From IMG/VR virus record IMGVR_UViG_3300009509_000058, positions 1 to 46,277 of that record: 46,277 nt of DNA; one strand, 5' to 3'. The translations under genes were made by a program, and so were the position numbers. Origin of the DNA: a virus. Positions 15,184 through 41,846 of the stretch are shown here, piece by piece. Each line of letters opens with the position of its first letter. Within the stretch, counting starts at the first letter, position 1. The notes under the pieces were generated by a model. It did not search any database, was not told the DNA's origin, and saw nothing but the letters and a program-made list of their open reading frames with translations.

Positions 15184-18006
15184 ATGGCAGTAGATGATAT
15201 CATAGCAATAAAAGCCCAAGCCGTAGACGACATGATGGATACACTGGGGCAATCAGCGGTGTTGACCCCGATAGATCACTCCGTACCACCATTCACCATC
15301 AGAGTACACCCAACATGTATAACTGACAAAGCCCCTGATGGATTTGGTGCCTATGTGGTAGTGCACATGCCAGCAGTGAAGATGTGTCGTGAAGATCTAC
15401 CGGCTGAGTATACACCAGCTAGAGGAGATAGGCTAAGCATCACCGGCTGCGGTGACTTCGTGATAGAGACCCCACTACGGTTATATACCAGCATGGTGAC
15501 GTATGGCATAGCGGCTATACTGTATACATCTACATCCACTACGATGACCACCACGACATCGACTACAACCACTACCAGCTCATCCACAACATCATCTAGC
15601 ACTAGCACTACCAGCTCGTCATCTACTACATCATCGTCGTATAGCACTACGTCTACGCTATCGACAACATCGACCAGCACCAGCACTACGACGTCATCCA
15701 GCACTACCAGCTACAGTACTACGACATCATCCAGTACCACCACCAGTAGCTCTACCACCACATCTACACTCAGCACTAGTACTAGTAGCTCCAGCACCAC
15801 GACGTCGTCTAGTACTACCACGACCAGCTCTAGTACAACTACCACTAGCTCATCATCCAGTACCATTACCACCAGCACTACTACCACCAGCTCCACTACC
15901 TCTAGTAGCTGCTCATCTACCACTACGACGTCATCTAGCACTATGACCACCACTACTACCATGTCGTCTAGCTCTAGCTCCAGCACTACAACTACCACTA
16001 CAATCACTACGACGTCGTCTAGTAGCTCATCCAGCACCACTACGTCGTCTAGCACTACCACCACCACCAGCTCATCATCTAGCACTACAACCTCATCCAG
16101 CACCACTAGCACGCACTCTACTACCTCCACCACACATAGCACTACCACTACCAGCTCATCTACCACTACCAGCTCATCTACTACTACCTCTACTACTAGC
16201 TCATCGTCCAGTACATGCTCTACGCTAAGCACATCGTCCAGCACTACCACTACCACCAGCTCATCGTCTACTACATCCAGTACAATGTCATCTACCACCA
16301 CTACTACCTGGACTACGACCACCACTACGACGTCGTCCAGCACTACCACTACAACATCATCCAGTACCACCACGACGTCATATAGTACCACTACGACATC
16401 ATCTACTACTAGTAGCTCATCATCTACATTATCTACTACTAGTACCTCATCATCTACTACCTCCACATCATCCAGCACCTATAGCACACTATCCACCACT
16501 ACCTCTACCACATCGTCGTCTACTACCACCACCACGACGTCGTCTAGCTCATCCACGACGTCTACCAGCACGTCTACGTATAGTACATCATCAACCACTA
16601 CTAGCACAACCACCAGCACTACTACATCATCATCGTCAACTACCTTAAGCTCTACCACGTCATCCAGCACTACGTCATCGACACTATCGACATCTACCAC
16701 TACCAGCTCATCGTCATCGACATCCAGTACGGCCTCTACACTGTCCACTACATCGTCTACTACATCATCCAGCACTACTACATCATCCACGATATCATCC
16801 TCATCATCATCTACCACTACCAGCTCCTCCACTACATCAATGACCACTACCACTACTACCTCAGACCTCTACGAATACTCCTACTACCGTACTATCACCA
16901 TCGACAACACCAAGGTCTACGGTGCCGCTAATCACAGTAACTTCCCGATGTTGTTCTCACACACTGCTGACTGGCTCAAAACCATAGGCAACGGAGGACA
17001 TATCACCGACTCTAATGGCTATGACATCATATTCACTGATGAGGACGCACTCGACCAGCTCGATCACGAGATAATCTCATACAACGGCACTACTGGAGAG
17101 TTCGTAGCCTGGGTGAGAATACCCACGCTGCTATACTCTACAGACACCACTATCCGTATATTCTATGGTAATTCCGCCATCTCATCATCCCAGGAAAACA
17201 TCGGTGGTACCTGGGAGCCCAACTACCTTGGTGTGTGGCATATGAAAGAATCCGGTAACGGCACTACTGATGAATTCGTAGACTCTAGCGGCAACAGCAA
17301 TCACGGTACTGGCGGTAACGGTGTAACAAGCGCTACTCCGACACGCACAACCGGAAAGCTAAAATACAGCCAGAGCTTCGACGGTGGTGACTTTATCACC
17401 ATGGGTAACGTACTCAGCCGAGGCAAGAACGCAGCACAATCCTACTCAGCTTGGATACAAACCACTAGCGGATCTGCAATGCAAGTAGTAGGAAAAGCCA
17501 ACGCCTCTACATGGCAGGGAGTATGGTGTGACTTAGAGGCAACCGGCGACATGGGATTTTACATGTACGATAGTGTCGGCAACTACATAGCTAAGCTAAG
17601 TAACACCAACTACACATCAGGTGCTTGGCATTACCTGACATGGGTGTTTGACGGTACCAACGACGCTTCCGGTATATCACTATACGCAGACGGCGCATTA
17701 CTGACTGCTAGTAGCAACAACGACCCACTAGGTACTGTGACTAGTACTGTTGTGTTCAGTATAGGCTGCGCTGGCAACGGCGGTGGATATTTCTGGGATG
17801 GTCTATTGGAAGAGATCAGACTACGTGGATACACCACACCTCTGACCTGGCATCAAACAGAATACGCTAATCAAAACTCACCAAGCACATTCTATACGCT
17901 AGGCGCCGAGACAGGATCATTATCACGCACGTCAACCACAACAACAACTACAACAACAACTACCACCACTAGTACCAGCACTACTACATCAACACCGCCA
18001 CCATAA
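15184..18006 (+). CDS. gpFII-like connector fused to mucin-like stalk and LamG domain
   Basis: A 940-residue protein in four parts. Residues 1-115 resemble lambda-type head-tail joining protein FII: AVDDMMDTLGQSAVLTPI, then TPARGDRLSITGCGDFVIET. Residues about 116-559 are almost only Ser and Thr, with scattered Tyr, Leu, Cys, His and Met, like a mucin stalk. Residues about 560-905 form lectin-like modules: first a DUF2341-like part (YRTITIDNTKVYGAANHSNFP and IRIFYGNS), then a LamG/concanavalin-type jelly roll (LGVWHMKESG, SQSFDGGDFITMG, YSAWIQT, WHYLTWVFDGTN, WDGLLEEIRL). A short Thr-rich tail ends TSTPPP. Normal FII proteins have roughly 117 residues, so the extension would project from the neck as fibres or whiskers (inference). 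GGAGGG precedes the ATG. Confidence 0.8.
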   Translation: MAVDDIIAIKAQAVDDMMDTLGQSAVLTPIDHSVPPFTIRVHPTCITDKAPDGFGAYVVVHMPAVKMCREDLPAEYTPARGDRLSITGCGDFVIETPLRLYTSMVTYGIAAILYTSTSTTMTTTTSTTTTTSSSTTSSSTSTTSSSSTTSSSYSTTSTLSTTSTSTSTTTSSSTTSYSTTTSSSTTTSSSTTTSTLSTSTSSSSTTTSSSTTTTSSSTTTTSSSSSTITTSTTTTSSTTSSSCSSTTTTSSSTMTTTTTMSSSSSSSTTTTTTITTTSSSSSSSTTTSSSTTTTTSSSSSTTTSSSTTSTHSTTSTTHSTTTTSSSTTTSSSTTTSTTSSSSSTCSTLSTSSSTTTTTSSSSTTSSTMSSTTTTTWTTTTTTTSSSTTTTTSSSTTTTSYSTTTTSSTTSSSSSTLSTTSTSSSTTSTSSSTYSTLSTTTSTTSSSTTTTTTSSSSSTTSTSTSTYSTSSTTTSTTTSTTTSSSSTTLSSTTSSSTTSSTLSTSTTTSSSSSTSSTASTLSTTSSTTSSSTTTSSTISSSSSSTTTSSSTTSMTTTTTTSDLYEYSYYRTITIDNTKVYGAANHSNFPMLFSHTADWLKTIGNGGHITDSNGYDIIFTDEDALDQLDHEIISYNGTTGEFVAWVRIPTLLYSTDTTIRIFYGNSAISSSQENIGGTWEPNYLGVWHMKESGNGTTDEFVDSSGNSNHGTGGNGVTSATPTRTTGKLKYSQSFDGGDFITMGNVLSRGKNAAQSYSAWIQTTSGSAMQVVGKANASTWQGVWCDLEATGDMGFYMYDSVGNYIAKLSNTNYTSGAWHYLTWVFDGTNDASGISLYADGALLTASSNNDPLGTVTSTVVFSIGCAGNGGGYFWDGLLEEIRLRGYTTPLTWHQTEYANQNSPSTFYTLGAETGSLSRTSTTTTTTTTTTTTSTSTTTSTPPP
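15529..16860 (+). repeat. Mucin-like Ser/Thr coding tract
   Basis: About 1.33 kb encodes roughly 444 residues of Ser and Thr. Thr codons ACT, ACC, ACG and ACA and Ser codons TCA, TCC, TCG, TCT, AGC and AGT are mixed, so the DNA is not a simple microsatellite. Antisense frames stay open and read as Val/Asp/Leu strings; these are by-products of composition. Confidence 0.9.
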
Positions 18007-23201: not shown

Positions 23202-26200
23202 ATGATATACGTAGGAATATCCACTCAGACATTCGACCTCCGAGGTAGCGTATTATTCAAAGCCAATGTATCCGAGACCGAGACTGACTCACTATCACGC
23301 AGAGTCACCCGTACAGCTACACTGGATGGTGGAGTCTCTATCACAGATAGTGGATACTCTGATGGGGATCGAACGTTCACCATAGTAGCAGAACTCACTG
23401 AGGCCCAGACTGATCGCCTAAAATACATCATGCGCAACTACTCAGAGGTGATAATGTCCATACCGGAGGGGATATTTCTGGTAAGCCTATCCTCACTCAA
23501 TAACATCTATGGTACTATCACTCTCCAGGCATACGTAAGTGAAAAGTTAGCCCCACTGGACATCCCAGCCTACTACTGCTCACGAGACTGCACATTCCAT
23601 AACTTGAACTGGTGGTATATCACCAAGCTCGACGGTACTGAGACCGCGACATCATACCTAAAGGGCGTCACTGACTATGAATGCGCTATAGACCTACCAG
23701 ACTCTACCGATACCCAAATCACTATACTCTACCAATACCTCATCCCAGCTGGAGATTTCGATATTGATCTGAGCCTATCCGACTACACCCCGGACGACGC
23801 TACTAACGGATTTGTGATCATGCTACGATTACGATCATCTGACAGCACATACTACTCTACTGTATATATGCGCACCACAGCAGTAGGAACATACCAAATC
23901 ACCCGTGCACATAAAGATGGCGCTATAACCTACACCGATGTCGATACAACCTCCAATGACCCTGGCACATTCCGCATCACCAGGATCGGTAATGAACTCT
24001 CAGCGTACTATTTCGCTAACTCATGGTCACTAGACTATACCCACGACTTTGACTCACACTCCAGTGACATCACTCATATAGAGGTTGTAGCCTACGACAC
24101 AGCTACACGAGGCGGTTCAGTAGACATAGATGATCTGATTTTTCGTCAGGGCTGCCCTGATCAATACCCAAAAGCCTGGACAACCACTAGCTCATCTACC
24201 ACTACAACATCATCCAGCACCGCATCTACCACATCATCATCCAGCTCACTGAGCACTACCACATCCACTACCAGCAGTACGACATCCACCACATCCACTA
24301 CTAGCAGTACGACAACTACCAGTTCTACACTATCCACTACCAGTACTACTATGTCAGGATCTACCACTAGCACAAGCCTTAGTACTACCACATCAACTAC
24401 CGCTACTACCACCACTACATCTACATCATCTACGACGTCATCTACAGCATCAACCACTAGCACGCTATCTACGACGTCATCTACAGCATCAACTACCAGT
24501 ACACTATCTACTGCTAGTACTACATCCTCAACAGCGTCAACCACCAGTACTCTATCTACCACCAGCACTCTGTCCACTACGTCCAGCACAGCATCTACCA
24601 CTAGCACACTATCCACAGCCAGTACTACATCCAGCACCGCTTCAACATCAACAATGACCAGTACTGTATCTACCGCGACAACAACCACGTCACCTCCATG
24701 CCCTTTCAATGAAAGCTTTGATGACCTGTCAGAGTGGTATATAGCCAAATACAACGGAGACGAAGAGTATGAGCTAACAGGTGGTAAGCTACGTTTTCAT
24801 ATACCCAATGGCGATAGAGAAATCACAGCCTGGCACCACTATGAAATACCTTCCGGTGATTTTGAGATAATGGTCACGCTAAGTGACTACACCCCACATG
24901 CAACTACCAGCTTTATAGTAGAACTATTAGTATCAAATACAATATCATCCAGGCCAGAGACAGACCCATCAGTGCACGATTGGGCCGCTGTTCTATATAA
25001 CATGGACGGTAGCTCGCACTACTCAAAATACAGATACAAATACAACAGCGCATATACCAACGGTCCGGCAAACAACATAGGAGCTGCCGCAACAAAGCTC
25101 AGATTACGTCGTGTAGGCACATTGATATATTTTGATTGCTATAGGTCAGGAGCGTGGTACTCCAATGGCGCTAAAGACTTTCTAGCAAGAGCAGGAAACC
25201 TAGTAGATCTTGGTATCTGTATCACTGATAGAGTAAACACCGGAGGCGAGGTTAAGTTTGATGATCTGTGGTTTATACAGGGATGCCCTGAAGGAACCCC
25301 AGCTTGGACAACCACCAGCACTACCACCACTACTAGCACATCTACAATATCAACCACATCCAGCGTATCCACTACCAGCTCTACAGTAACCAACTCATCG
25401 ACATCATCAACCGCCACGACTACTACTGCGCTGTGTGAGTTTGATGAGGATTTCACCTCACTAGACAACTGGCGTGTCACTAACGCTAATGGGTATTCAA
25501 CATCAGTAATATCCGGCAGTAAACTAAAAATGCAGGTAGAGGACGGTCATAGTGGTTACACCGCCTGTGACTATGGCTACCATCTACACACTGGAGATTT
25601 TGATATAACAGTCGACATGGACTCATACTACACAGAGAGTCCAACAGACGGCTCTAAAATATATTTTATGGTGAGTGACGCTTTAGTAGCACCTGACAAT
25701 AACTGTTATATAATGTACTACCAAGATACTTCATATAAGGTAAAAGCTCAGTCAACCATAAATGGAGTAACAGGATCAGCAACAACAGACACTACCAGTG
25801 TAGAGACTACCAGACTGCGTATAACCCGCGTAGGTACAGTACTGAGTGTATACTACTATGAAGGTTCTTGGGTCCTGCTAGAGTCCTGGGATTTCTCATC
25901 CTACGCACCATCGCTGTATATGGTGATACTGTACATGGAGTCTAACCCAGGTGGTAGAGTCTATATGGATAACCTAAAATTCATAGAGGGATGTCCGTAC
26001 CCAACCACAACCACTACTACGTCTACGTCCACCACGACATCAACTACCACCAGTACTACAGCCTCTACGTCAACTACGTGTAGCACATCCAGCACATTGT
26101 CTACAGTAACAACCACAACCTGTATCTATAATGAATTCTTTAGTGGTGATCTCAGTTCCTGGACAATAGATGAGGAGTACGGTAGCGAAACAGCCAGTAT

Positions 26201-26729
26201 AGTGAGTGGTAAGCTACGACTACACGTCCTAGACTCAGCCAACGGTGATATCTTAGCCACATACAACTACTCAGTGCCTGACGAGAACTTCGATATCCAG
26301 ATAGACCTCAGTGCTTACACTCCTGATAGCGGTACTAATGGCCATCGTACATTCTTCACCATAGCCAATGCTGCCGGACACAACATCTCTGACTATAACC
26401 ACGCTTGCACTATACGTGTCGAGATAGATAACGGTACCTTGGAGGTTAGCTCTAGTGTATATCAGTTCAAAGCTACTCTCGACTTTACACAAGATACCCC
26501 TGCTGGTGTGCCGACTGCATTAAAGATCACCAGAACCTCCAACTATATAACAGCAGCGTACTATTACTCTGGTAGTTGGCATATACTATCAGCCGCTATC
26601 AATCTTGGAGAATACGCCGCTACATTAGATACAATCAATATCGTAGTAACCAACGGCTACTCTTTTAGGGGTGGACAATCAGATTTCGACAACCTGATAT
26701 TTAACTACGGTTGTCCAACTGGAGCATAG
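23202..26729 (+). CDS. Tail protein with four lectin-like modules on mucin-like linkers
   Basis: A 1175-residue protein. Residues 1-118 form a small tail-associated domain (FKANVSETETDSLSRRVTRT, FTIVAELTEAQTDRLKYIMR). Then come four related beta-sandwich modules at about residues 120-325, 500-700, 743-933 and 973-1175. Each has a F...L..W start, a P-x-G/E-x-FDI segment, an LRITR-x-G-like strand followed by YYY..SW, and an end like GGxVxxDxLxFxxGCP. Ser/Thr linkers separate them at about 327-499, 702-742 and 934-973. Cysteines flank the modules (CPFNESF start, GCP end), possibly as disulfides. The folds resemble concanavalin/LamG-type carbohydrate-binding domains. It sits after the tape measure gene, so a tip or side-fibre role is likely. 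Confidence 0.78.
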   Translation: MIYVGISTQTFDLRGSVLFKANVSETETDSLSRRVTRTATLDGGVSITDSGYSDGDRTFTIVAELTEAQTDRLKYIMRNYSEVIMSIPEGIFLVSLSSLNNIYGTITLQAYVSEKLAPLDIPAYYCSRDCTFHNLNWWYITKLDGTETATSYLKGVTDYECAIDLPDSTDTQITILYQYLIPAGDFDIDLSLSDYTPDDATNGFVIMLRLRSSDSTYYSTVYMRTTAVGTYQITRAHKDGAITYTDVDTTSNDPGTFRITRIGNELSAYYFANSWSLDYTHDFDSHSSDITHIEVVAYDTATRGGSVDIDDLIFRQGCPDQYPKAWTTTSSSTTTTSSSTASTTSSSSSLSTTTSTTSSTTSTTSTTSSTTTTSSTLSTTSTTMSGSTTSTSLSTTTSTTATTTTTSTSSTTSSTASTTSTLSTTSSTASTTSTLSTASTTSSTASTTSTLSTTSTLSTTSSTASTTSTLSTASTTSSTASTSTMTSTVSTATTTTSPPCPFNESFDDLSEWYIAKYNGDEEYELTGGKLRFHIPNGDREITAWHHYEIPSGDFEIMVTLSDYTPHATTSFIVELLVSNTISSRPETDPSVHDWAAVLYNMDGSSHYSKYRYKYNSAYTNGPANNIGAAATKLRLRRVGTLIYFDCYRSGAWYSNGAKDFLARAGNLVDLGICITDRVNTGGEVKFDDLWFIQGCPEGTPAWTTTSTTTTTSTSTISTTSSVSTTSSTVTNSSTSSTATTTTALCEFDEDFTSLDNWRVTNANGYSTSVISGSKLKMQVEDGHSGYTACDYGYHLHTGDFDITVDMDSYYTESPTDGSKIYFMVSDALVAPDNNCYIMYYQDTSYKVKAQSTINGVTGSATTDTTSVETTRLRITRVGTVLSVYYYEGSWVLLESWDFSSYAPSLYMVILYMESNPGGRVYMDNLKFIEGCPYPTTTTTTSTSTTTSTTTSTTASTSTTCSTSSTLSTVTTTTCIYNEFFSGDLSSWTIDEEYGSETASIVSGKLRLHVLDSANGDILATYNYSVPDENFDIQIDLSAYTPDSGTNGHRTFFTIANAAGHNISDYNHACTIRVEIDNGTLEVSSSVYQFKATLDFTQDTPAGVPTALKITRTSNYITAAYYYSGSWHILSAAINLGEYAATLDTINIVVTNGYSFRGGQSDFDNLIFNYGCPTGA

Positions 26730-26734
26730 GTACC

Positions 26735-27286
26735 ATGAGTGTACGACGCATAAACTTCTCGTTTGTCATAAGTCATCCAGACCTCGGAGATGTAACAATA
26801 CCAATATCGTCGTTTACTGCGCGCATACGTGAAGGATCGCCGTCGTACCTACAGGTAGTAGTACCTGACTATAATACCTATGCTAACGCTATACTAAGCC
26901 GTACTACCCACTGCCGTAACTGTGAACTCACTATATACCGCACACTAGATGGTGACTCATCAACCATTACAGAAGTACTAACAGTCGATTTCGAGAATCT
27001 CCGCGCCGACATAGGTAGTAGATCACAGTCGATATTCCTAGTAGGACATCGCACATCCTACAATGCCTCGCCTAGAACAGTAACACTCACAGACATTGAC
27101 TATGTCCGCTATGGCATCGATGTCGAGGAGGACCCAACCAACAGAGTGAGATTCTCAGCCTATCTGGACGTCACTGCCGGAGATACTGTAGAATACACTC
27201 TAGGAGCCGACGCATACTCATTCACTGTCGGTCTACTCACGCTCAACGCTACTCAGTACGATTTCGAGCAGGAGGCCTCCAGCTAA
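26735..27286 (+). CDS. Tail tip-region protein, unknown
   Basis: A 183-residue protein starting MSVRRINFSFVISHPDLGDV, all-beta in character (SPSYLQVVVPDYNTYANAIL, CELTIYRTLDGDSSTITEVL). A start at 26711 is possible, but the ATG at 26735 avoids overlap with the preceding gene and is kept. Lying between two large tail proteins, it is probably a component of the tip or baseplate-like structure, functionally comparable to small lambda tip proteins L or K. No motif supports a specific assignment. Its stop overlaps the next start (TAATG). Confidence 0.6.
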   Translation: MSVRRINFSFVISHPDLGDVTIPISSFTARIREGSPSYLQVVVPDYNTYANAILSRTTHCRNCELTIYRTLDGDSSTITEVLTVDFENLRADIGSRSQSIFLVGHRTSYNASPRTVTLTDIDYVRYGIDVEEDPTNRVRFSAYLDVTAGDTVEYTLGADAYSFTVGLLTLNATQYDFEQEASS

Positions 27287-28974
27287 TGGGTAAAGCCACT
27301 ATACTAGGATCTAAAGACCTAAATCTAGCTCCTGGCCAATACAGAGTACGCATAGAAAAATCCGATAGCCGTGTAGCCGCCACAAACGAACAGATCGACC
27401 AGGAACTCACTATACTGGACAATATCATACCTGAGCGTTACTCATCATACTCAGACGCGATCAGAGCCCACAAAACCGCAGAGTCAGACCTAGACGCCAT
27501 AGTACGGCAGTCCATAGAATCACCTGACGCAGATCACTCAGCTAAAATCAACTCAGCCACTACAGCAGAACGTACAGCCTATACCAATCTAATTAAAGCT
27601 AAGAGCCAATACCAAGCAGTCGTATTAAAACAGCAAGCACTCCAGAACAAACGCTCATACCTCAACAATCAGATCACCGAGGACATACGCACAGTGTGGT
27701 GTGCTGACTGCCAGAAATCACTATCAGGTGAAGTCGCTACAATGGAGATTCCAGGTACAGACCAGATCATCATGATACGACCGGGTGGTGCTGACGGCTC
27801 CGGCTCGGAGTATTCTGTATCACGTGATGGCCAACTACGTTCAGTAGCATCAATGTCATCTGCCGAGGTTGTCTGGAATTACACTATGCTACCTGGATGG
27901 CAGAAATGGAAACCAATCTACAGACTAGGCAAGATCACCAACAGACCACCAGGTGCCAGTAAATGCTCAGTGCTACTAGACCAATACTCTACAGTACAAG
28001 GTCTCGCTACTGATGTAGAACGCCAACTCCATAATGTCCCTATGATCTACAAGAATCGTGACGATGGCGGTCCTTATGTGGTGGGTGATCGTGTCGTTAT
28101 TGAGTTTTATAACCAAAACCACGAATCACCACGTGTGATAGGGTATGAAGAATATCCGTGCACCACTACAACACTCACCACCACTACAACTACATTGACA
28201 GTAACTACCACTACCACCACATCCCTAGAGATCATGTACACGCAAGACTACACAGGTGCTATACTCACATACGACGCAGATGCAGGATCGTTCATAGGAC
28301 CTATGGGAAACACACCATACTGCCCTGGATATCCACCATGTACGTTCAGGGGTTTAGCCACTACAGGCACTAAACTAATCCAGTGCGCGTTATTCCATCG
28401 TAAACTCCTAGTATTGAACATATCCACAGGCGCGGTAGAGGATATCTACACAGATGCTTATGCTGCTGTGTTTGGTTCTCCGCCACCTGCATATCCTACT
28501 GGCGCTTGGAAAGGAATACTAGATATAGGGTATGATCCGTCATCAGGCGACTTGGTAACTGTCATGGGTGACCCTCCATACGATATACAAGGCTATCTAG
28601 TCATACACGATGGCACTAGTGATACTATATCCACATCAGGGCATGTATTTACTACAACTGGCTACCAAGTATCTCCGCACTCAGTAACAGTAGTAGACGG
28701 TGATATTATAGTATACGCTACCCGTACAATAGACCCTGGTAGTGGGAGCTACCTAATAACCATGAATGGTATGTCGTTGACGCCTAAGTCTACTATATCT
28801 TGGCCTATAGCATATCGGTATAACCACATTACCTCCCATAACGGTAACCTAATAGGCACAGCTATTCTAGCAGATCCAAAACATATCGTATTACATAGCG
28901 GACTAACACCAACAGTGCTAGGGTCATTCTACCTATCGTATGATCCTGTAGGGATAGCGGTGTATGACCCATAA
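27286..28974 (+). CDS. Tail tip protein with Thr-rich linker and propeller-like domain
   Basis: A 562-residue protein. Residues 1-135 contain a long helical coiled coil (TNEQIDQELTILDNIIPERY; AERTAYTNLIKAKSQYQAVV). Residues 145-290 include a Cys pair (VWCADCQKSL) and an OB/beta domain with GPYVVGDRVVIEFYNQN, typical of tail tip or hub proteins that exclude or guide ligands. A Thr-rich linker at about 292-314 leads to a C-terminal 245-residue domain with repeated strand pairs (GAILTYDADAGSFIG, RKLLVLNISTGAVEDIY, GDLVTVMGDPPYDIQGYLVI), suggesting a beta propeller. A role in receptor contact is inferred. Confidence 0.65.
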   Translation: MGKATILGSKDLNLAPGQYRVRIEKSDSRVAATNEQIDQELTILDNIIPERYSSYSDAIRAHKTAESDLDAIVRQSIESPDADHSAKINSATTAERTAYTNLIKAKSQYQAVVLKQQALQNKRSYLNNQITEDIRTVWCADCQKSLSGEVATMEIPGTDQIIMIRPGGADGSGSEYSVSRDGQLRSVASMSSAEVVWNYTMLPGWQKWKPIYRLGKITNRPPGASKCSVLLDQYSTVQGLATDVERQLHNVPMIYKNRDDGGPYVVGDRVVIEFYNQNHESPRVIGYEEYPCTTTTLTTTTTTLTVTTTTTTSLEIMYTQDYTGAILTYDADAGSFIGPMGNTPYCPGYPPCTFRGLATTGTKLIQCALFHRKLLVLNISTGAVEDIYTDAYAAVFGSPPPAYPTGAWKGILDIGYDPSSGDLVTVMGDPPYDIQGYLVIHDGTSDTISTSGHVFTTTGYQVSPHSVTVVDGDIIVYATRTIDPGSGSYLITMNGMSLTPKSTISWPIAYRYNHITSHNGNLIGTAILADPKHIVLHSGLTPTVLGSFYLSYDPVGIAVYDP

Positions 28975-28980
28975 ATCACC

Positions 28981-29085
28981 ATGGCAGCTACACAACTGCC
29001 AATGACATACAACGAAATCAAAATCCTCCAGTCTGAAGGATACAAAAACGAAAGGAGGTATTATACGAGACAATGCCAAGAATAA
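28981..29085 (+). CDS. Possible 34-aa small gene
   Basis: A short frame (MAATQLPMTYNEIKILQSEG, then KNERRYYTRQCQE) fills the gap between the tip gene and the large fibre gene and overlaps the fibre ATG at 29073. It has no ribosome site of its own. It could couple translation to the fibre gene, or the stretch may simply be a leader carrying the fibre's AGGAGG. Confidence 0.3.
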   Translation: MAATQLPMTYNEIKILQSEGYKNERRYYTRQCQE

Positions 29086-32000
29086 CCAAGTACGACCTAG
29101 TAACCGCTCTACACTGGGCAGACCAGCTAGTCGTCGTACAAAACGGAGTAACAAAACGCTGCACTATTGAGCAAATCTATGAGCTAATGGGGCACACAAC
29201 CACCAGCTCGACCACTACTAGTTCGACCACGACATCGTCAAGCTCTACGACATCCAGTACAGCTAGTACTATATCAACCACGTCTAGTACGTCGTCTACA
29301 GCATCTACTACGTCTAGTACTGCATCTACGCTGTCAACTACATCCTCTAGTACCAGTACTACGACGTCATCCAGTACCAGCACCAGTACAAGTACTACGA
29401 CGTCATCTAGCACTACTACTAGCACTACTACATCATCTAGCACCAGCACCAGCTCTAGTAGTACTACTACATCGTCATGCAGCACTACTACCAGCACCAG
29501 TACTACAACATCGTCCAGCACTACTACCAGTACTATTAGTACATCGTCCAGCACTACCACTACAATCTCTACTACCACATCGTCCTCTACCACTACTACA
29601 TCGTCCAGTACCAGCAGCACCAGCTCCAGTACCACTACAACTATCTCCAGCACCACTGCTAGTAGCTCCAGTACTACCACCAGCAGCTTTAGCACTACTA
29701 GTACAACCCACTCAAGCACTACATCGTCATCCAGCACCACTACTACACACTCAACTACGACTACAACAAGCTCTAGTAGTACCACAAGCTCTACCATGTC
29801 CACTACATCCAGTACTGCCAGTACTATCTCCACGACATCATCCAGCACCACCACCAGCTCTTCTACTACCTCTACGTCGTCATCTACTACTACTACATCG
29901 TCATCTACCACTACATCTAGCACGTCCAGTACTGCATCTACTATATCGACGACATCATCGTCCTCCAGCACATCGTCTACTGCATCTACTATCTCCACGA
30001 CTTCCAGTACTGCATCTACAGTCTCTACGACATCATCAAGCACCACCAGCTCAAGTACTACCTCTAGTACAGCATCCACACTATCCACTACCAGTACCTC
30101 ATCGTCATCCACTACGTCAAGCTCGACGTCTACTACAGCTAGTACATGGTCAACAACCACCACAAGCTCATCGACTCTATCTACTACTTCATCTACCATG
30201 ACTAGCTCCAGTACTACTACTAGCTCATCAACAGCCTCTACAACATCATCCAGTACAAGCACCACGGCATCTACACTGTCAACCACCACCACCACTACCT
30301 ACTGGTGCGAGTTCAGTGAATCATTCCCGGATCTTGAATCCTGGAATATGGAAACCAGCGGTGGAGGCACTGCATCAATAGTCTCTGGAAATCTTAAGCT
30401 AGATCTACCGGACTCTGTGACGTCATACGTAATAGGCTACTACATGTACTTACTGCCTACTGGTAACTTCGACTTAGAGATAGATCTGGATAGCTATACT
30501 CCAGACTCAGAGTCTGATGGATTCTACATCACACTGGACACAGTAGATGGTGACACAGCTATAGCTGATCGCTATGGAGTACGCTACAAAACAGATGCAG
30601 GACCTATACACACTGTGTATGGTGTATGGAGATTGAACAACTCTAACGCATCAGGTACAGAATATCACCCAGCCGGACTACCGACAAAACTACGAGTAAC
30701 CAGGACAACTACTGTGTTTAGATCATACTACTTCTATGGTGGATCTTGGACACTAGTCAATACTCAAGACTTTAGCACCAGAGCATCCAATGTGGTTGCT
30801 ATACGAGTAATGGCTGTGTCTCGTAATGACAGAGGTGGTTCTGTAGACTTCGATAACATGGCGTTCAATACATATTGTCCTGATGGTTATCCGAAATTCT
30901 GGACCACGACATCAAGTACGACTACTACCACAAGCTCCAGCACTACTACCAGCTCATCCAGTACTTTATCTACTACTACGTCGTCCACTACTACCACCAG
31001 TACTAGTTCATCGACATCCAGTACAATGTCTACACTATCTACGACTACATCTACTAGCACGAGTTCATCGACGTCATCTACGGCATCCACACTATCTACT
31101 ACGTCGACATTATCTACTACATCATCAACTGCGTCTACTACATCTACATTATCTACTACATCATCCACATTATCCAGCTCATCCACTACAACTACCTATT
31201 GGTGTGAGCGTAGTGAGACATTTGAAAGTTTAGATCTGTGGAATATCCAAGAGACAGCAGGCGTCACATCCAGTATAGTCGACAATAAGTTCCGTGTACA
31301 CTGCGAAGCAGACACCGGATACATACATGGAGACTATCATTACAAATACAGGCTGCCTGAAGGCGATTGCGATATTAGTCTTGACTTATCTAATTACAAC
31401 CCTGATCCTGGAGAACTCGGAGCAAGGTGTTACTTCTATATGGTGGATCTGCCGTTAGGATCACCGACTACGTTTGGATGGATAAGCACGTGGCAATATG
31501 CTACTGGCTTATACAGAGTTGCTTATTATATGAATGCTAGCGGTGATTTAGACAGCGGTGATACCTCTGGACTCACTAGTCTACCAACATCACTACGAGT
31601 AACAAGATCAGGTGATATAGTCTCAACTTACTATTACTACAACGGATCGTGGAATTTACTGCACAGTAAGGACTATGGCGAGTACGCTTCTGACCTCGTA
31701 GGAGTTAGGATCGATGTATATGCTATAGATTCATCAAATGGCGGTGCAATAGATATGGACAACATGACATATAATAGTTGCTGTCCAAGGATATTCCCAC
31801 CATACTGGCCTTCTGATGCTACCAGCTCAACATCGTCGACATCGTCCACCATGTCTACAACATCGACATTATCTACTACCACGACATCAACAACCAGCTC
31901 TAGTACATCATCTACAGCTAGCACGCTCTCAACCACTACAACATCATCTAGCTCGTGCTCCAGTACGTCATCTACAGCTAGCACGCTCTCAACTACGTCA

Positions 32001-32216
32001 TCTACGGCTAGCACACTCTCTACGACGTCATCTAGCACTACCACTACTAGCTCATGCTCATCCACATCCAGCACAGCATCGACATTATCTACTACGACCT
32101 CATCCAGTACTACCACGACGTCGTCGACTACATGCTCATCGACATCATCTACAGCATCGACTACGCACACATCAACCACCACTACCTGCACCACTACATC
32201 AACACCTCCGGGCTAA
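29073..32216 (+). CDS. Mucin-like tail fibre with two lectin-like modules
   Basis: A 1047-residue protein. The N-terminal 42 residues (KYDLVTALHWADQLVVVQNG, TKRCTIEQIYELMG) resemble virion-attachment segments of tail fibres. Then come three Ser/Thr tracts at about residues 43-409, 610-708 and 914-1047, with recurrent STASTLSTTS- or STASTISTTS-like units. Between them lie two modules (about 410-609 and 709-913) of the same family as the four in the 23202-26729 product: FPDLESWNM or FESLDLWNI starts, a FDLEIDLDSYTPDSES-type segment, LRVTR, YYxYxGSW and GGxxDxDNM ends. The chain ends TSTPPG. An AGGAGG lies about 13 nt before the ATG. This is the main receptor-fibre candidate, followed by hairpins and the glycosyltransferase cassette. 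Confidence 0.8.
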   Translation: MPRITKYDLVTALHWADQLVVVQNGVTKRCTIEQIYELMGHTTTSSTTTSSTTTSSSSTTSSTASTISTTSSTSSTASTTSSTASTLSTTSSSTSTTTSSSTSTSTSTTTSSSTTTSTTTSSSTSTSSSSTTTSSCSTTTSTSTTTSSSTTTSTISTSSSTTTTISTTTSSSTTTTSSSTSSTSSSTTTTISSTTASSSSTTTSSFSTTSTTHSSTTSSSSTTTTHSTTTTTSSSSTTSSTMSTTSSTASTISTTSSSTTTSSSTTSTSSSTTTTSSSTTTSSTSSTASTISTTSSSSSTSSTASTISTTSSTASTVSTTSSSTTSSSTTSSTASTLSTTSTSSSSTTSSSTSTTASTWSTTTTSSSTLSTTSSTMTSSSTTTSSSTASTTSSSTSTTASTLSTTTTTTYWCEFSESFPDLESWNMETSGGGTASIVSGNLKLDLPDSVTSYVIGYYMYLLPTGNFDLEIDLDSYTPDSESDGFYITLDTVDGDTAIADRYGVRYKTDAGPIHTVYGVWRLNNSNASGTEYHPAGLPTKLRVTRTTTVFRSYYFYGGSWTLVNTQDFSTRASNVVAIRVMAVSRNDRGGSVDFDNMAFNTYCPDGYPKFWTTTSSTTTTTSSSTTTSSSSTLSTTTSSTTTTSTSSSTSSTMSTLSTTTSTSTSSSTSSTASTLSTTSTLSTTSSTASTTSTLSTTSSTLSSSSTTTTYWCERSETFESLDLWNIQETAGVTSSIVDNKFRVHCEADTGYIHGDYHYKYRLPEGDCDISLDLSNYNPDPGELGARCYFYMVDLPLGSPTTFGWISTWQYATGLYRVAYYMNASGDLDSGDTSGLTSLPTSLRVTRSGDIVSTYYYYNGSWNLLHSKDYGEYASDLVGVRIDVYAIDSSNGGAIDMDNMTYNSCCPRIFPPYWPSDATSSTSSTSSTMSTTSTLSTTTTSTTSSSTSSTASTLSTTTTSSSSCSSTSSTASTLSTTSSTASTLSTTSSSTTTTSSCSSTSSTASTLSTTTSSSTTTTSSTTCSSTSSTASTTHTSTTTTCTTTSTPPG

Positions 32217-32489: not shown

Positions 32490-33809
32490 ATGAAAATAGG
32501 CATTATCACGACATTCCAATCGTTCATGCCCCAGTACTCACTCACCGGTATCGTAAAAGACCGCGCTGAGATGTTGACCAAATACGGTCACGAGGTGCAT
32601 CTGTTCGTGTCTGAGCGCTACCACGGCGAGGAGTTCCCAGCTAACGTAATACTGGAGAAAAAAATCCCATTCACACACCTAGCGGACTACCACACTATGG
32701 AGCAGTTCACTGGTAAGGACGAGAGCTACAAACCAGCACCGGGGTGTGACACCCCAGCACAACACCAAGCTATAAAGAACCGCACTGCCGCTATGTTCAG
32801 AGAAGAACTCACTGATTATGACGCTGTAATTACTGAAGATATCGTATTCCAGGGCTGGCACTTGCCATTCGCAGTCGCTATCATGGAAGCCTCTAAGGAC
32901 CTACCTAACGTCAAATGGCTACACGCGATACACTCGGTACCATCAGCAGGGTCTAATTTCTGGGACATGAACCTCTATGGTAAACGACACAAGCTACTAT
33001 ACCCTAACAGATCAGATGCACTCAGAGTCGCTGAGGAATATCGTGGCGTGATCGACGACGTTAGAGTCATCCCACACATCAAAGACATCCGTACGCTGTT
33101 CGACTACTCACAAGACACACGAGACTTTATCGATTGGTGTCCCGGAGTAATGCAAGCCGAGATAGTCCAGATCTATCCAGCGTCAGTGGATAGACTAGAG
33201 GCCAAACGTCTATCAGAGGTCATAGGGGTATTCTCACACCTAAAGCGTATGGGCAAGACAGTGTGCCTAGTGGTAGCTACTCAGTGGGCAACAGGCCAAA
33301 AACAGCTAGATATCATCAACGGATATAAGAGGGAAGCTATCGACAAGGGCCTTGACGTCGGCACGGACATCGTGTTCACCCCGGACTTTAAGCCCCCAGG
33401 TCGAGAGAAGGCATTCGGTGTCGGCATACCCAAGACAATGATCAGAGAGTTATTCCAACTCTCCAACCTGTTCATATTCCCTACTCGTGAGGAGACATTC
33501 GGGCTAGTACTACCGGAAGCCGCGCTGTGTGGTAGTCCTATAGTGGTACTAAACGGTTCATTGGATATGATGCGTGAGATCTCAGGCCACAATGCACTGT
33601 ACTTTGATTTTGGATCGCATTTCCGTGTAGCTAACCACAAGAATGGTATAGACCCGCTGCTCAGGGATATAGCATTGATAGTACTAGGGCGTATTCTGGC
33701 TAACGAGAGTGTACGACTCAAGACATATATGAGGAGGCACTATAACATGGACTACCTGTATAAACGATATTACGCTCCTATATTGGCCGAGAGCAGGATG
33801 TGGATATGA
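32490..33809 (+). CDS. GT4-family (GT-B) glycosyltransferase
   Basis: A 439-residue protein starting MKIGIITTFQS, with a Rossmann-type N-terminal domain (IVKDRAEMLTKYGHEVHLFV). The C-terminal nucleotide-sugar domain carries the GT4 signature LFIFPTREETFGLVLPEAAL (about residues 328-347), with the E-x7-E pattern, then CGSPIVVLNG. GT4 enzymes use nucleotide-activated sugars and retain anomeric configuration. It is the first gene after the fibre operon hairpins, with a GGAGG ribosome site. Possible acceptors are the Ser/Thr-rich virion proteins, phage DNA or a host polysaccharide; location favours the first (inference). Confidence 0.87.
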   Translation: MKIGIITTFQSFMPQYSLTGIVKDRAEMLTKYGHEVHLFVSERYHGEEFPANVILEKKIPFTHLADYHTMEQFTGKDESYKPAPGCDTPAQHQAIKNRTAAMFREELTDYDAVITEDIVFQGWHLPFAVAIMEASKDLPNVKWLHAIHSVPSAGSNFWDMNLYGKRHKLLYPNRSDALRVAEEYRGVIDDVRVIPHIKDIRTLFDYSQDTRDFIDWCPGVMQAEIVQIYPASVDRLEAKRLSEVIGVFSHLKRMGKTVCLVVATQWATGQKQLDIINGYKREAIDKGLDVGTDIVFTPDFKPPGREKAFGVGIPKTMIRELFQLSNLFIFPTREETFGLVLPEAALCGSPIVVLNGSLDMMREISGHNALYFDFGSHFRVANHKNGIDPLLRDIALIVLGRILANESVRLKTYMRRHYNMDYLYKRYYAPILAESRMWI

Positions 33810-34740: not shown

Positions 34741-35859
34741 ATGCCAAACCTAGTATATCTCTACACATCAGGAGGAGCCCCTCGCGGTGATCTCACTAAC
34801 ACACCACCATACGACCCAACCCCAGACACTCACAACAGGTTCGCTCTAATGGCCCCGTCCGATGGTATGGTACATATGTTTCAGTTACTCACTGAGTACC
34901 ACTACTTTGACTCTATGACGGTACTCATAGACTCTACTAAGTCGCCAGGCTCGTTACCACTAGGTAAATGGTCTACCATCCATACCATACCATCAATGTC
35001 ATTAGCGCTTAACTACATAAACCCAGGAGATATACTAGTGGTCAGGGGAGGGTTCAGGGCCTGGTACCCTCTCCTAGACCATATCTACAGACAGCGCAAG
35101 AACTGGATACTGTTCTATAGAGCGAACACTAACAGACACCCATGGCCATTCTGGGACATAATACTGAATGATCTTATTGATGAGCCTAGAGCTATCAGGG
35201 GACGTCTACACTATAACTTCTCTAAGCCTGTCAATGAGTCTATATTCGGTATCATAGACGCTCCCAGTACAATCCCACGCGAGTATGACGTCATGATAGG
35301 CGCATCCCACATACACCGCAAGAAAGGCCAATACATTACAGTAAAGGCACTACAGCAATACTACCATATGTTCGGTATCAAACCACGCGCTATACTGCCA
35401 GGCGGCTATATGCGATGCACAGAAAACAACACAATAAAATCCATCATTAGATCAGGCGACGTAGACATCACCGGACCTAAGAACTTCACCAGGCAACAGC
35501 TAGCGCTACAAATGAATCGTACCAAGCTATTCGTACACCCAGGCTATGGTGGTCAGAACGACCGTGGTATCCTAGAGGCTATGTGCTGCGGATGCCTACC
35601 ATTGATATTCGGTCAGCGTCATGTATCGCCAATCATCTGGGATCACTCAGTACACATACCACAAGACCCAAACAACATAGCCCAGACCATACACAAGGCA
35701 CTCAGCATGGTCGATGATTATGACCGCACAACATACCAACGTATCAACGGTCTAATCGAGGTGTGTCTACCTAAGATGGTAGATCTACTACAATTCATCA
35801 GCAAACACCCAGTACCGGACAGATCAGCTGCCTGTGCTGAGTTTACAGGAGGACGATAA
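34741..35859 (+). CDS. GT-B glycosyltransferase (GT4-like)
   Basis: A 372-residue protein. The N-terminal domain starts MPNLVYLYTSGGAPRGDL and contains a Rossmann-like GDILVVRGGFRAWYPLLD. The C-terminal domain has VMIGASHIHRKKGQYITVKA, MNRTKLFVHPGYGGQNDRGI and LEAMCCGCLPLIFG, matching the acceptor- and donor-binding E-x-M-x-x-G pattern of GT4-like enzymes (about residues 280-305). It would transfer a sugar from a nucleotide donor; donor and acceptor are unknown. Start preceded by GGGAG. The end of the gene carries the AGGAGG used by the following methyltransferase. Confidence 0.8.
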   Translation: MPNLVYLYTSGGAPRGDLTNTPPYDPTPDTHNRFALMAPSDGMVHMFQLLTEYHYFDSMTVLIDSTKSPGSLPLGKWSTIHTIPSMSLALNYINPGDILVVRGGFRAWYPLLDHIYRQRKNWILFYRANTNRHPWPFWDIILNDLIDEPRAIRGRLHYNFSKPVNESIFGIIDAPSTIPREYDVMIGASHIHRKKGQYITVKALQQYYHMFGIKPRAILPGGYMRCTENNTIKSIIRSGDVDITGPKNFTRQQLALQMNRTKLFVHPGYGGQNDRGILEAMCCGCLPLIFGQRHVSPIIWDHSVHIPQDPNNIAQTIHKALSMVDDYDRTTYQRINGLIEVCLPKMVDLLQFISKHPVPDRSAACAEFTGGR

Positions 35860-35863
35860 TGTC

Positions 35864-36454
35864 ATGTATGACTTAGATAAAGCCTATAGCGAAAAGTTCT
35901 TTAATCAACGCAAATCACTATCCTGGCGCGTACCGATAGTAGTAAGCGCTATCGAGGACGTACTGCACCCAACCTCAGTGATCGATGTCGGTTGTGGCAA
36001 CGCCGATCTGCTCAAGGGGTTCTCACCAGACTGTAAGAAATTCGGTCTGGAGGGCACTCACAATGCTATTAATGCCATAGGTAAACACGACGATATCTAC
36101 ATATTCATTCGAGATCTCAGAAAACCTCTGGATGACTTCCTACTACACAAAGCCGACCTTGCCATATGCTTTGAGGTCGCTGAGCACATAGAGCCGGAGT
36201 ACGCTGATGTGTTTGTGGATAACCTCTGTGGATTATCAGATAGAGTACTCATGACAGCGGCACCTCCAGGGCAGGGTGGTAACCATCATGTCAACTGTCA
36301 GCCGTTCGCTTATTGGTTCTATAAATTCACAGCACGAGGCTATAGACATGAGACAGCTACCACAGTACAGTTACGACTACAATGGAATAGATGGAAAAAC
36401 AAGAAGGGCATTAAAGCCTACTACAATAACCTCATGTACTGGGAAAGGATCTAG
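35864..36454 (+). CDS. SAM-dependent methyltransferase (class I)
   Basis: A 196-residue protein read from the ATG at 35864, 11 nt after AGGAGG. It shows the class I motif I VIDVGCGNADLLKGF (about residues 37-51), a second motif around FGLEGTHNAINAIGK, and the motif IV/post-IV region ADLAICFEVAEHIEPEYADV. A His-containing GNHHVNCQPFAYWFYKF follows, typical of small-molecule or sugar O-methyltransferases in polysaccharide clusters. Set among glycosyltransferases, capping or decorating glycans is the best guess; DNA or protein methylation cannot be excluded. Confidence 0.82.
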   Translation: MYDLDKAYSEKFFNQRKSLSWRVPIVVSAIEDVLHPTSVIDVGCGNADLLKGFSPDCKKFGLEGTHNAINAIGKHDDIYIFIRDLRKPLDDFLLHKADLAICFEVAEHIEPEYADVFVDNLCGLSDRVLMTAAPPGQGGNHHVNCQPFAYWFYKFTARGYRHETATTVQLRLQWNRWKNKKGIKAYYNNLMYWERI

Positions 36455-36456
36455 CC

Positions 36457-37242
36457 ATGGGCGTAGACATTACCATAACCGCAACATGCCGACCTGAGAT
36501 TCTACACCGTACCCTAGAGTCATTTAACCGTAATATGCTGAGATTCCACCAAAACATCATCAACAATGTATTCATCAACATAGACCCTGTAGGTCCAGGC
36601 GACCCACGCGAAACCGCTATTGTAGCTGGGGAGTTCTTTCCTATAAAAAAACTTACAATACATGTACCGTTTACTCCATCATTCCCTAAAGCGTTCATCT
36701 GGTGCTGGCAGCAAACACTCACCACTGACAGTGCTTGCGTATTCCACCTAGAGGATGACTGGGAGCTAACACGACCAATAGATCTCCAGCAACTATTCAT
36801 ACTACTCCGACTCTACCCGGACCTCTCTATACTGCGCCTATCAGCATTCAGGTCCGGTACTCACATAATGAAATGCTGGAACAAGCTCATCCAGTGGAAT
36901 GGTACGTTCTTTGAGGTACCACCTGACCTCCGTGGTCTACTGGGGTTTTGTGGTCATCCATCACTAATACGCAAAGAGTTCATCCAGACTGTACTACCTC
37001 ACCTCGACTCTGATAAGAACCCAGAGAAGCAGATCAAGGGTAATCATCCTCAGTTTGGTCCATACATCCTAGCTCATAGGTTTGGTGTTTACCACGGACA
37101 AGACGAACCGCCTGCGATCCACGACATTGGTAGACAGTGGATGATCGACAATGGTATCCGGGATCTAAAGCGTGGTTTACACAATGGGAGAATAGTGAAG
37201 GTAAAAATCCGAAGTCAGACACAACACCTACCGATAAGGTAA
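36457..37242 (+). CDS. GT-A fold glycosyltransferase-like protein
   Basis: A 261-residue protein with an N-terminal GT-A style start (DITITATCRPEILHRTLESF) and an acidic metal-binding candidate CVFHLEDDWELTRP at about residues 93-106 (the EDD/DxD type). Further conserved-looking segments are SILRLSAFRSGTH and GLLGFCGHPSLIRKEFI. The C-terminal part has a His-rich segment (AHRFGVYHGQDEPPAIHDIG). It lies two bases after the methyltransferase stop. Family number is uncertain, but a nucleotide-sugar transferase is likely. Confidence 0.72.
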   Translation: MGVDITITATCRPEILHRTLESFNRNMLRFHQNIINNVFINIDPVGPGDPRETAIVAGEFFPIKKLTIHVPFTPSFPKAFIWCWQQTLTTDSACVFHLEDDWELTRPIDLQQLFILLRLYPDLSILRLSAFRSGTHIMKCWNKLIQWNGTFFEVPPDLRGLLGFCGHPSLIRKEFIQTVLPHLDSDKNPEKQIKGNHPQFGPYILAHRFGVYHGQDEPPAIHDIGRQWMIDNGIRDLKRGLHNGRIVKVKIRSQTQHLPIR

Positions 37243-39166: not shown

Positions 39167-40201
39167 ATGCCACATAAACTATCAATAATAATGCCGTTCT
39201 GCGGAGAGTACCCACAGAACATATTCACTATAAAATCAATATGGAATCAATTCAGAGATTTGGATTACGATGTCGACTGGGAATTAATCGCTGTGAATAA
39301 TTGGTGTAGCCAGGTAGCAATCCAAGCAGATTATGCCTACACGTGCCCAGATTGTGGTAAATCCCGCAAGATCACTAGAGCTGAAGCTAATCGTTACCGT
39401 CCACCGTATGCCAAAGATGATCCTGGTGGTAATAGAGTACGTGCCTACGCAGCAATACATCCATGGTTGAAATATGTAGAATACTCTGATAAACTATCGC
39501 ATTGGAATGCTAAGAACGCAGGTGTGACATCATCAACTGGAGATATACTGTTCTTTATAGATGCTCATTGTGATATAGACCCTGGTATATTAGCTGATAT
39601 GTTTATGTTCTACTCAGAACACTATAAAGAATTAAATGGCACACTTCATTTACCAATATATTATTTCCTAGAACGTCCTGATAAAGCGCTTATATATAAG
39701 TTAGTGGCCAAACCAGAGGTATCTATGTATCACTACTCGTTTACAAGATATAGACATATTCCATTAGACGTCAAACAAGTACCATGTATGTCTACCTGTG
39801 GTATGATGATGTCTAGGGAGATATATGATCAGCTTGGAGGATGGCCAAAAGAGTTAGGCATATATGGTGGAGGTGAAAACTTTATTAACTTCACGTTAGC
39901 AGTGCTTGGTAAGACTGTAAACATATATCCTACTAGAATGTCACTGCATCACTATGCCGAGAAGCGAGGCTATAATTTCGAGTACGTTGATCATAAACGC
40001 AACCAGATCATAGCAACATATATGTTTGGTGGTTATGACCGTGCTAAGACATTCTCGCAAAACTGCAAACTCGACCCAAAGACGGCAGAGCGCGTACTGG
40101 CCGAGGTCACAGATCGCTGTGCAGACCACCGAGCACTAATAGAAAAACAACAAATCACTACTATAGAGGATTGGTACGATAAATGGCAGCCAAAATCATA
40201 G
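39167..40201 (+). CDS. Polypeptide GalNAc-transferase-like glycosyltransferase (GT2/GT27-like)
   Basis: A 344-residue GT-A enzyme. Its start LSIIMPFCGEYPQNIFTIKS is typical of GT2. The acidic motif reads GDILFFIDAHCDIDPG, with DAHC at residues 132-135 preceded by AKNAGVTSSTGD. A later segment contains STCGMMMSREIYDQLGGWPK, then GIYGGGENFINFTLAVLG (GGGEN at 234-238) and IYPTRMSLHH with His 261-262. Eukaryotic polypeptide GalNAc-transferases carry D-x-H with a nearby Cys/Glu, then GG-F and a W-GGEN-E segment, then a conserved His. The order here is the same, though the lectin domain is absent. An unusual CPDCGK insert near residue 60 may bind zinc. Its best acceptor candidates are the Ser/Thr tracts of the tail and neck proteins (inference). 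Confidence 0.72.
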   Translation: MPHKLSIIMPFCGEYPQNIFTIKSIWNQFRDLDYDVDWELIAVNNWCSQVAIQADYAYTCPDCGKSRKITRAEANRYRPPYAKDDPGGNRVRAYAAIHPWLKYVEYSDKLSHWNAKNAGVTSSTGDILFFIDAHCDIDPGILADMFMFYSEHYKELNGTLHLPIYYFLERPDKALIYKLVAKPEVSMYHYSFTRYRHIPLDVKQVPCMSTCGMMMSREIYDQLGGWPKELGIYGGGENFINFTLAVLGKTVNIYPTRMSLHHYAEKRGYNFEYVDHKRNQIIATYMFGGYDRAKTFSQNCKLDPKTAERVLAEVTDRCADHRALIEKQQITTIEDWYDKWQPKS

Positions 40202-41075: not shown

Positions 41076-41275
41076 CAGACTATAACGACATAATATGTAA
41101 ATGCGGGTATAAAGTAGAACTACATAGTATGGTAATAATAGATGATTCACATATAGGATCGTATTGGGTAGAGTGTGACCATTGTGGGCGTATGGGTCCT
41201 ACAGAGATATCGGCACGAGATGCGGTACGATCATACAATAACACTATGGAGGATGATAATGTCAATAGTAAATGA
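41072..41275 (+). CDS. Lar-like zinc-ribbon protein
   Basis: A 67-residue protein read from the ATG at 41072, which overlaps the preceding stop (ATGA). It has CKCGY, then WVECDHCGRMGPTEISARDA, then VRSYNN. This is the order C-x-C-G, V-x-C-x-x-C-G-x-x-G-P, D/E-A-x-x-x-x-N seen in Lar restriction-alleviation family proteins. Lar of Rac prophage modulates type I restriction; many phage relatives are untested. The zinc-ribbon fold is likely; the anti-restriction role is only by family. Confidence 0.65.
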   Translation: MTDYNDIICKCGYKVELHSMVIIDDSHIGSYWVECDHCGRMGPTEISARDAVRSYNNTMEDDNVNSK

Positions 41276-41846
41276 TTTCACCAGAGAGCTAGGTGATAAG
41301 TACCGTGAATACCTACGTGACGTATCGACCATGGCCCCGTCGATGCAGACACTAGGGCTACTACTGGAGCTATGCACCCCAGGATGCAAGGTACTAGATC
41401 TTGGCACCGGGTTTAGTTCGTATGTGTTGTATTATTATTCGATTCATCGTGATTTATATGTTTGTTCTGTAGATGATACTCAACAGTGGTTAGTCAAGTC
41501 TAAGAGCTATTGCGGGCTTAAGCTAGACGATATTGACACACGGCATGTATGGGATACATGGGATAGTTTTGTAAAATTTAGAACAACCAAATTTGATGTT
41601 GTGTTTATGGATCTTGGTACTACCCGACGACGGCCAGACTATTATGCTACAGTGCTTAGTAAGTTCTGTGATGAACGCACACTAATACTCTTTGACGACA
41701 TGCACAAGCGCCCACTACGAGACGCAGTAACCAAAGCCCTACGACCATATGACTATATCGATATTCCAGTGAAAGACCGTACTATAGATGAGTTTGGTAG
41801 ATACTGTAAACTAATATTTAGATTAAGACCAAAGGAGGCTGTATAA
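41259..41846 (+). CDS. SAM-dependent methyltransferase, second copy type
   Basis: A 195-residue protein from the ATG at 41259 (GGAGG 6 nt upstream). Motif I is CKVLDLGTGFSSYVLYYYS; a motif II-like acidic end is VCSVDDTQQWL; a motif IV-like block is FDVVFMDLGTTRRRPDYYAT; and TLILFDDMHKRPLRDA follows. The fold pattern matches small class I O-methyltransferases. It differs clearly from the enzyme at 35864-36454. Substrate unknown; glycan, small molecule or nucleotide are possible. Confidence 0.75.
   Translation: MSIVNDFTRELGDKYREYLRDVSTMAPSMQTLGLLLELCTPGCKVLDLGTGFSSYVLYYYSIHRDLYVCSVDDTQQWLVKSKSYCGLKLDDIDTRHVWDTWDSFVKFRTTKFDVVFMDLGTTRRRPDYYATVLSKFCDERTLILFDDMHKRPLRDAVTKALRPYDYIDIPVKDRTIDEFGRYCKLIFRLRPKEAV

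Follow-up and report, generated by a model that had tools for sequence, protein, structure and literature searches.

An almost pure serine/threonine (S/T) tract of 444 residues lies in the putative head-tail attachment protein of the virus analysed here. There is strong support for selection acting on its amino-acid composition, and with a probability of roughly 0.6 it would serve as the stalk of an adhesin that is mounted on the neck and probably O-glycosylated. The DNA is the IMG/VR record IMGVR_UViG_3300009509_000058 (46,277 bases), which was analysed as a whole and is called here the window.

The window contains a lambda-like morphogenesis module with portal, head maturation protease, gpD-like decoration, major capsid protein (MCP), Neck1, FII, tail terminator and tape measure genes (Table 1). 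The tract is located inside the 940-aa gene 15184-18006, which is placed between the head genes (Neck1 at 14086) and the tail terminator (18016), as is lambda gpFII. From domain and gene order, the product is best read as a lambda FII-type head-tail attachment protein with a C-terminal extension of about 825 residues. The family model PF05354 scores 0.5 bit below the Pfam cut-off in the window protein (E=2e-5, 25.5 bits against 26), 34.7 bits in the sister ortholog (E=2.8e-8) and 43-46 bits in distant relatives (E=9e-12). The window protein thus shares domain and gene neighbourhood with lambda gpFII, but the distant relatives, found through their MCP, are bare 105-aa proteins without tract or extension. 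In the window protein the tract is flanked by the neck domain on its N-terminal side and by a DUF2341/LamG lectin-type module on its C-terminal side. C-terminal endings of the type TSTPPP or TSTPPG are common to several S/T-tract proteins (window 18000 and 32210; 15099 and 17719 in sister locus L003). The nearest named relatives of the capsid protein (12561-13577) belong to Wolbachia phage WO, with 53% identity. Searches by tblastn of the C-terminal module, the neck domain, the lectin domain and a glycosyltransferase (GT) against named phages gave no match, and genomes scanned with the tail tube protein as query gave none either.

Table 1. Coordinates of the neck gene parts, tail-region S/T genes and cassette enzymes in the window.
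Feature	Coordinates	Strand	Evidence or remarks
Neck1 gene	14086-14721		upstream of 15184; phrog_27 E=1e-23
Head-tail attachment domain, lambda gpFII type, N-terminal	15184..15525	+	PF05354
S/T stalk (candidate), 444 residues	15529..16860	+	composition and codon analysis
DUF2341 + Laminin_G_3 (ConA-like) module	16861..17907	+	PF10102 E=2.4e-6 and PF13385 E=1.7e-12, both above cut-off
Short Thr-rich C-terminal tail, ends TSTPPP	17908..18006	+	common to sister protein
Tail terminator	18016-18729		downstream of the 15184 gene; phrog_4204
Tail protein after the tape measure, four ~190-aa lectin-like domains	23202..26729	+	S/T tracts 24168-24695, 25293-25430, 25992-26123 between domains
Tail-region protein	27286..28974	+	short Thr tract 28159-28230
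1047-aa protein, ~38-aa anchor, two lectin-like domains	29073..32216	+	S/T tracts 29184-30305, 30891-31205, 31809-32210
GT4-type glycosyltransferase	32490..33809	+	PF00534 E=1.2e-7; 85% identical in sister
Probable GT-B glycosyltransferase (weak)	34741..35859	+	PF13692 E=0.003, below cut-off; 68% identical in sister
Putative methyltransferase	35834..36454	+	PF07021 E=0.001, below cut-off; 66% in sister
Putative GT-A-like protein, HLEDDWE motif	36457..37242	+	no family match; 60-64% in sister
GT2/GT27-like glycosyltransferase, IDAHCD and YGGGENF motifs	39167..40201	+	PF00535 E=2.3e-7; 71-72% in sister
Putative methyltransferase	41175..41846	+	PF13578 E=0.005, below cut-off; 56% in sister

The initial annotation had described a 444-residue tract that draws on every one of the four Thr and six Ser codons, and the counts agree with it. 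Frame and coordinates (15529-16860) are exact, and the 444 codons specify 218 Thr, 199 Ser and 27 other residues, which gives an S/T share of 417/444 (94%). The remaining residues are eight Leu, five Met, five Tyr, three Ile, two Cys, two His, one Trp and one Ala; Asp, Glu, Lys, Arg, Asn, Gln, Pro, Gly, Phe and Val do not occur in the tract. Threonine is encoded by ACC (76), ACT (71), ACA (38) and ACG (33), and serine by AGC (49), TCA (44), TCT (37), TCC (28), TCG (23) and AGT (18), the codon entropy being slightly higher than elsewhere in the genome (Thr 1.91 against 1.82 bits, Ser 2.50 against 2.42). The small X-Ser gene 45279-45419, to which a single Ser codon had been attributed, does show this contrast: it is a hexanucleotide NNGTCA repeat coding for 46 aa, and its 18 serines are all TCA. 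The sister counterpart of this gene (~44.34-44.46 kb, reversed) is less pure, with TCA and TCG as Ser codons and some Ala and Pro.

The absence of a repeating DNA unit, also put forward earlier, stands for long repeats only. Exact in-frame repeats of at least six codons number five pairs, against 3.0 expected from shuffles preserving the protein and the codon context, and the longest one (six codons) is at the shuffled level (mean 6.4). However, repeats of 4-5 codons show a mild excess (P 0.03-0.04 against shuffles), there is a signal at a lag of 30 bp or 10 codons (z 3.6, the best of 40 lags tested) and TRF reports short imperfect arrays; an old duplication has therefore left faint traces. 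The codons are diverse at constant S/T content, as the idea of codon shuffling implied, but their choice is not free. Third bases follow a junction rule whereby T before TC is found 0 times (38 expected), A before AC 10 times (42 expected) and G before AG 0 times (9 expected), while TC after A or G, and AC after T, are overrepresented. Since the AA/TT part of the rule is seen outside the tract as well (A before AC 95 against 181, T before TC 28 against 100), the tract codons have settled into the context preference of the genome at large. Over the whole window (1-46277) AA/TT is avoided with a dinucleotide ratio of 0.72, most strongly at the codon junctions A before AC, T before TC and A before AG. 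No tRNA genes able to account for the codon use of the tract were found. Antisense ORFs rich in Val, Asp and Leu that run across the tract were rejected as mirror images of S/T codons.

Selection on the protein had been proposed from the codon diversity, and the proposal is upheld by a neutral simulation, by the sister tract and by a recurrent motif. If the tract were a recently expanded triplet repeat in neutral decay, the short imperfect arrays, the ten-codon lag and the recent exact repeats of the sister tracts would be in keeping with it; nevertheless, this origin is so improbable for the window tract that it can be regarded as refuted. It takes about 0.8-1 substitution per site for the simulation to arrive at the observed Thr third-base entropy, and sequences of that diversity retain about 29-37% S/T and have gained ~8-17 stop codons, against 94% and 0 in the window. 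Third bases are saturated and positions 1 and 2 are not. Ala, Pro, Asn, Arg and Gly, expected as neutral neighbours of S/T codons, are nearly absent, and Leu, Tyr and Met are enriched among the residues other than Ser and Thr. Besides, in the motif T-X-S-T (X = L/A/Y/H/C; for example T-L-S-T) Ser comes next in 18/18 cases, and it is written with many different codons. Because neutral decay to equal third-base diversity would lose S/T and gain stops, because the sister stays S/T-rich at a different length and because T-X-S-T is kept with varied codons, selection at the protein level is strongly supported. Estimates of dN/dS between window and sister tracts were rejected, since low-complexity alignments are there indistinguishable from those between non-orthologous tracts.

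Close relatives were sought with the MCP, tail tube, neck domain, GT4 and GT27-like proteins. The search yielded WO-like MCP relatives and two sister contigs that are near-identical to each other, that is, one distinct close relative only. The best one, IMGVR_UViG_3300018080_000189 (61,963 bases; L003, L017-L020), is syntenic, and most shared genes have 43-85% protein identity. The FII neck domains of sister and window share 43% identity, and the orthologous tract of the sister has 292 aa with 91% S/T. The module C-terminal of this tract has no Pfam match and no detectable similarity to the DUF2341 and LamG domains of the window, so that similarity in the FII protein is confined to the neck domain, apart from the short Thr-rich C-terminal tail; a single-sequence structure model of the sister head was of no use (pLDDT 32). 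Between these two proteins the module behind the tract is swapped. In the sister contig, a helicase-like gene, which in the window occupies two ORFs (43697-44335 and 44443-45282), be it by frameshift, error or true split, is a single ORF of 519 aa.

Recent repeat expansion, which does not explain the window tract, is present in its relatives. The sister FII tract has 18 exact pairs of six codons, against 0.3 expected. The contig IMGVR 3300017991_003847 and the sister 3300018080_000189 (L021 against L018/L019), which come from different samples, show 0 substitutions over 18 kb, and their sole difference is that 39 bp (13 codons) of an S/T tract are duplicated in one of them, in tandem, in frame and perfectly; this may be an assembly artefact. 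Since the tract DNA of the relatives has recent in-frame repeats, tract length seems to change by duplication at constant composition; in our reading, tracts lengthen in frame and diversify later, the window tract being an old one. Moreover, an N-terminal anchor of about 45 aa (..CTIEQI.ELMGHTTTSST) heads two different sister S/T-tract genes (L003 15113-17722, and 29738-31747 of the reversed sister contig), one of them beside FII, and it is also related to the window gene at 29073, which suggests a reusable attachment peptide.

S/T tracts also occur in three more window genes, all of them beyond the tape measure (23202, 27286 and 29073), and in two of them (23202 and 29073) the tracts join copies of a domain of about 190 aa. 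Its AlphaFold2 model (pLDDT 82) gave Foldseek matches to legume lectins, ERGIC-53 and lichenase (E 4e-7 to 2e-6, best 3.7e-7), folds of a kind that occurs in many phage proteins. The ConA-like lectin/LamG superfamily is hence matched twice, by profile in the 16861-17907 module and by fold in the repeated domain. In another virus (L112, ~9.8-12.1 kb) a single protein combines this lectin-like domain (E 3e-9) with STAST-type tracts.

An enzyme cassette starts 0.3 kb past the last S/T gene. Its genes, four of them glycosyltransferase-like and two methyltransferase-like, are all kept in the sister. The first enzyme (GT4) is as conserved as the MCP, with 85% identity in each case, and its nearest PHROGs family is phrog_2170, filed as moron/host takeover. 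Polypeptide GalNAc-transferases (GT27) are the enzymes that start mucin glycosylation. When solved structures were searched with a two-sequence phage profile of the 39167-40201 enzyme, all 11 matches at E<=1 were polypeptide GalNAc-transferases. The likeness to GT27 is weak, with E 8e-4 at best and i-E 0.009 for the best single domain, and Pfam assigns the enzyme to GT2. Its two motifs align with the GalNAc-transferase stretches DAHCE and WGGEN (DxH and GGEN types), and their core residues are invariant in the sister. These likenesses are suggestive, not proof, of a GT27-like enzyme of the mucin-glycosylation-initiating type. The enzyme also has a zinc-ribbon-like stretch, CPDCGK. A scan with the motif FIDAHC[DE] for further GT27-like genes returned no ORF fitting the GT profile.

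Other viruses were surveyed by scanning IMG/VR with a degenerate DNA pattern for TTTSSSTTTSSST, which matched at least 120 stretches. Thr-rich mixed-codon linkers are widespread in viral contigs: among the matches listed there are at least 85 tracts of at least 40 aa in at least 66 loci (median 61 aa, longest 370). Most of these are dominated by Thr, and many contain Pro. The window tract is alike in being a mixed-codon Thr/Ser linker between domains, but its Ser is nearly equal to Thr, and it is the longest among the tracts listed (444-457 aa). When near-pure tracts were defined as those of at least 50 aa with at least 90% S/T, the groups being formed after the counts had been seen, contigs with such tracts had 6.8 GT1/GT2 matches per 100 kb, against 0.75 in mixed-tract contigs and 1.7 in controls. 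Three or more such matches were present in 5/8 near-pure-tract contigs and in 2/38 mixed-tract and control contigs (Fisher P=8e-4, post hoc grouping); mixed-tract contigs, often with prolines, had five GT matches in 667 kb. The co-occurrence is a lead only, since the grouping is post hoc, one further pure-tract contig (L068, tract of 35 aa) has a single GT2, and the proximity of GT genes to the tract does not consistently exceed chance, with no significant effect against random positions in most surveyed contigs. Near-pure S/T tracts together with several glycosyltransferases were seen in the virus contigs L138, L086, L082, L040 and L141. A search of the open-access literature for S/T tracts of this kind in phages found no paper.

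According to the proposed model, the first 115 residues (the FII-type domain) would dock in the neck ring, and the S/T chain would project outward and carry a ConA/LamG-type sugar-binding head, swappable between related phages. Selection would keep the chain S/T with sparse T-X-S-T spacers, whereas in-frame tandem duplication would alter its length, third bases drifting afterwards to the codon-junction preferences of the genome. The same stalk design may be used in the three other tail-region proteins. By binding sugars, the lectin head could anchor the virion on glycans of the host or the environment, or steer the tail. A mucin-like chain extends about 0.25 nm per residue, and tail length is about 0.15 nm per tape-measure residue; the stalk, if mucin-like, would thus measure about 110 nm, which is of the same order as the tail expected from the 914-aa tape measure. 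As S/T has been kept while the DNA was scrambled, and as the virus encodes sugar-attaching enzymes, the stalk would probably be mucin-like and coated with sugars. It is somewhat more probable than the contrary that the phage's own glycosyltransferases would O-glycosylate the S/T chains in the host cytoplasm, by which the stalk would be stiffened, hydrated and protected, as in mucins and serine-rich-repeat adhesins. A complete phage-encoded mucin-type system, with a GT27-like initiator, extending glycosyltransferases and neck and tail bristles tipped by swappable lectins, is a tentative extension of the model and rather doubtful at present.

The same tract could serve as a plain, unglycosylated and flexible spacer, for which any long, uncharged and soluble chain would do, with the glycosyltransferases acting on host surface sugars or on phage DNA. 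Such a role, although on balance unlikely, agrees with how common mixed-codon Thr-rich linkers are, with the scarcity of GT genes in mixed-tract contigs and with the several known targets of phage glycosyltransferases (PMC12619734). It does not require, however, 94% S/T without Gly, Pro, Asn, Gln or charge, and it leaves aside the co-occurrence of near-pure tracts with GT genes, the position of the cassette directly after the last S/T gene and a GT4 conserved like the MCP. Less probable still is a role of the cassette in building or altering a glycan of the host surface, for receptor change or superinfection exclusion, the tracts being unmodified arms. The mixture of GT4 and GT2 enzymes with methyltransferases would also suit a surface polysaccharide, and phrog_2170 is filed under moron/host takeover, but the GT27-like enzyme suggests a polypeptide acceptor and near-pure S/T tracts accompany GT genes in unrelated contigs. 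The reading of the tract as a glycosylated stalk is preferred to both.

S/T-rich virion linkers and glycosylated phages were already known separately; in the single phage lineage described here, S/T tracts of mucin scale, borne by the neck connector and by tail proteins, stand beside a conserved GT cassette with a GalNAc-transferase-like member. If the model is true, it offers a compact, testable case of protein O-glycosylation in bacterial viruses and a clear example of selection on composition, with drift in sequence, codons and length. Near-pure S/T tracts may also be a marker flagging virion-glycosylating phages.

Among known systems, the earlier comparison with mucins is a fair analogy as far as composition is concerned, the glycosylation that it implies being supported only indirectly. 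The PTS domains of animal mucins are likewise S/T-rich and keep their composition while sequence and length drift, and GT27 is the only family among the solved relatives of the 39167 enzyme (a weak match). Nevertheless, the window tract belongs to a phage and has 0 Pro in 444 residues, homology between the tracts is not claimed, its glycosylation is putative, and a profile search found no ricin-B lectin domain on the phage enzyme. In serine-rich-repeat adhesins, glycosyltransferases modify Ser/Thr inside the cell before assembly or export (PMC5578698). These adhesins (GspB, Fap1, PsrP, with GtfAB and further Gtfs) also combine long S/T stretches, a separate binding region and glycosyltransferases. 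By contrast, the window protein is a phage virion protein without export, its gene lies in a morphogenesis module and not in a secreted or accessory Sec system, Thr is about as frequent as Ser in an irregular order with no fixed repeat, and no GtfA/GtfB model is among the NCBIfam matches of the four window glycosyltransferases. As for phages, virion glycosylation is described for mycobacteriophages in PMC11256854 and in PMC12619734, which cites Freeman 2023; there, Che8 and Rita are given as glycosylated and Maravista as predicted to be so. These phages resemble the present one in encoding glycosyltransferases whose targets are virion structural proteins, here candidates only; the mycobacteriophage glycans are placed at the C-termini of capsid and tail-tube subunits, whereas the candidate sites here are hundreds of S/T-tract residues on neck and tail proteins.
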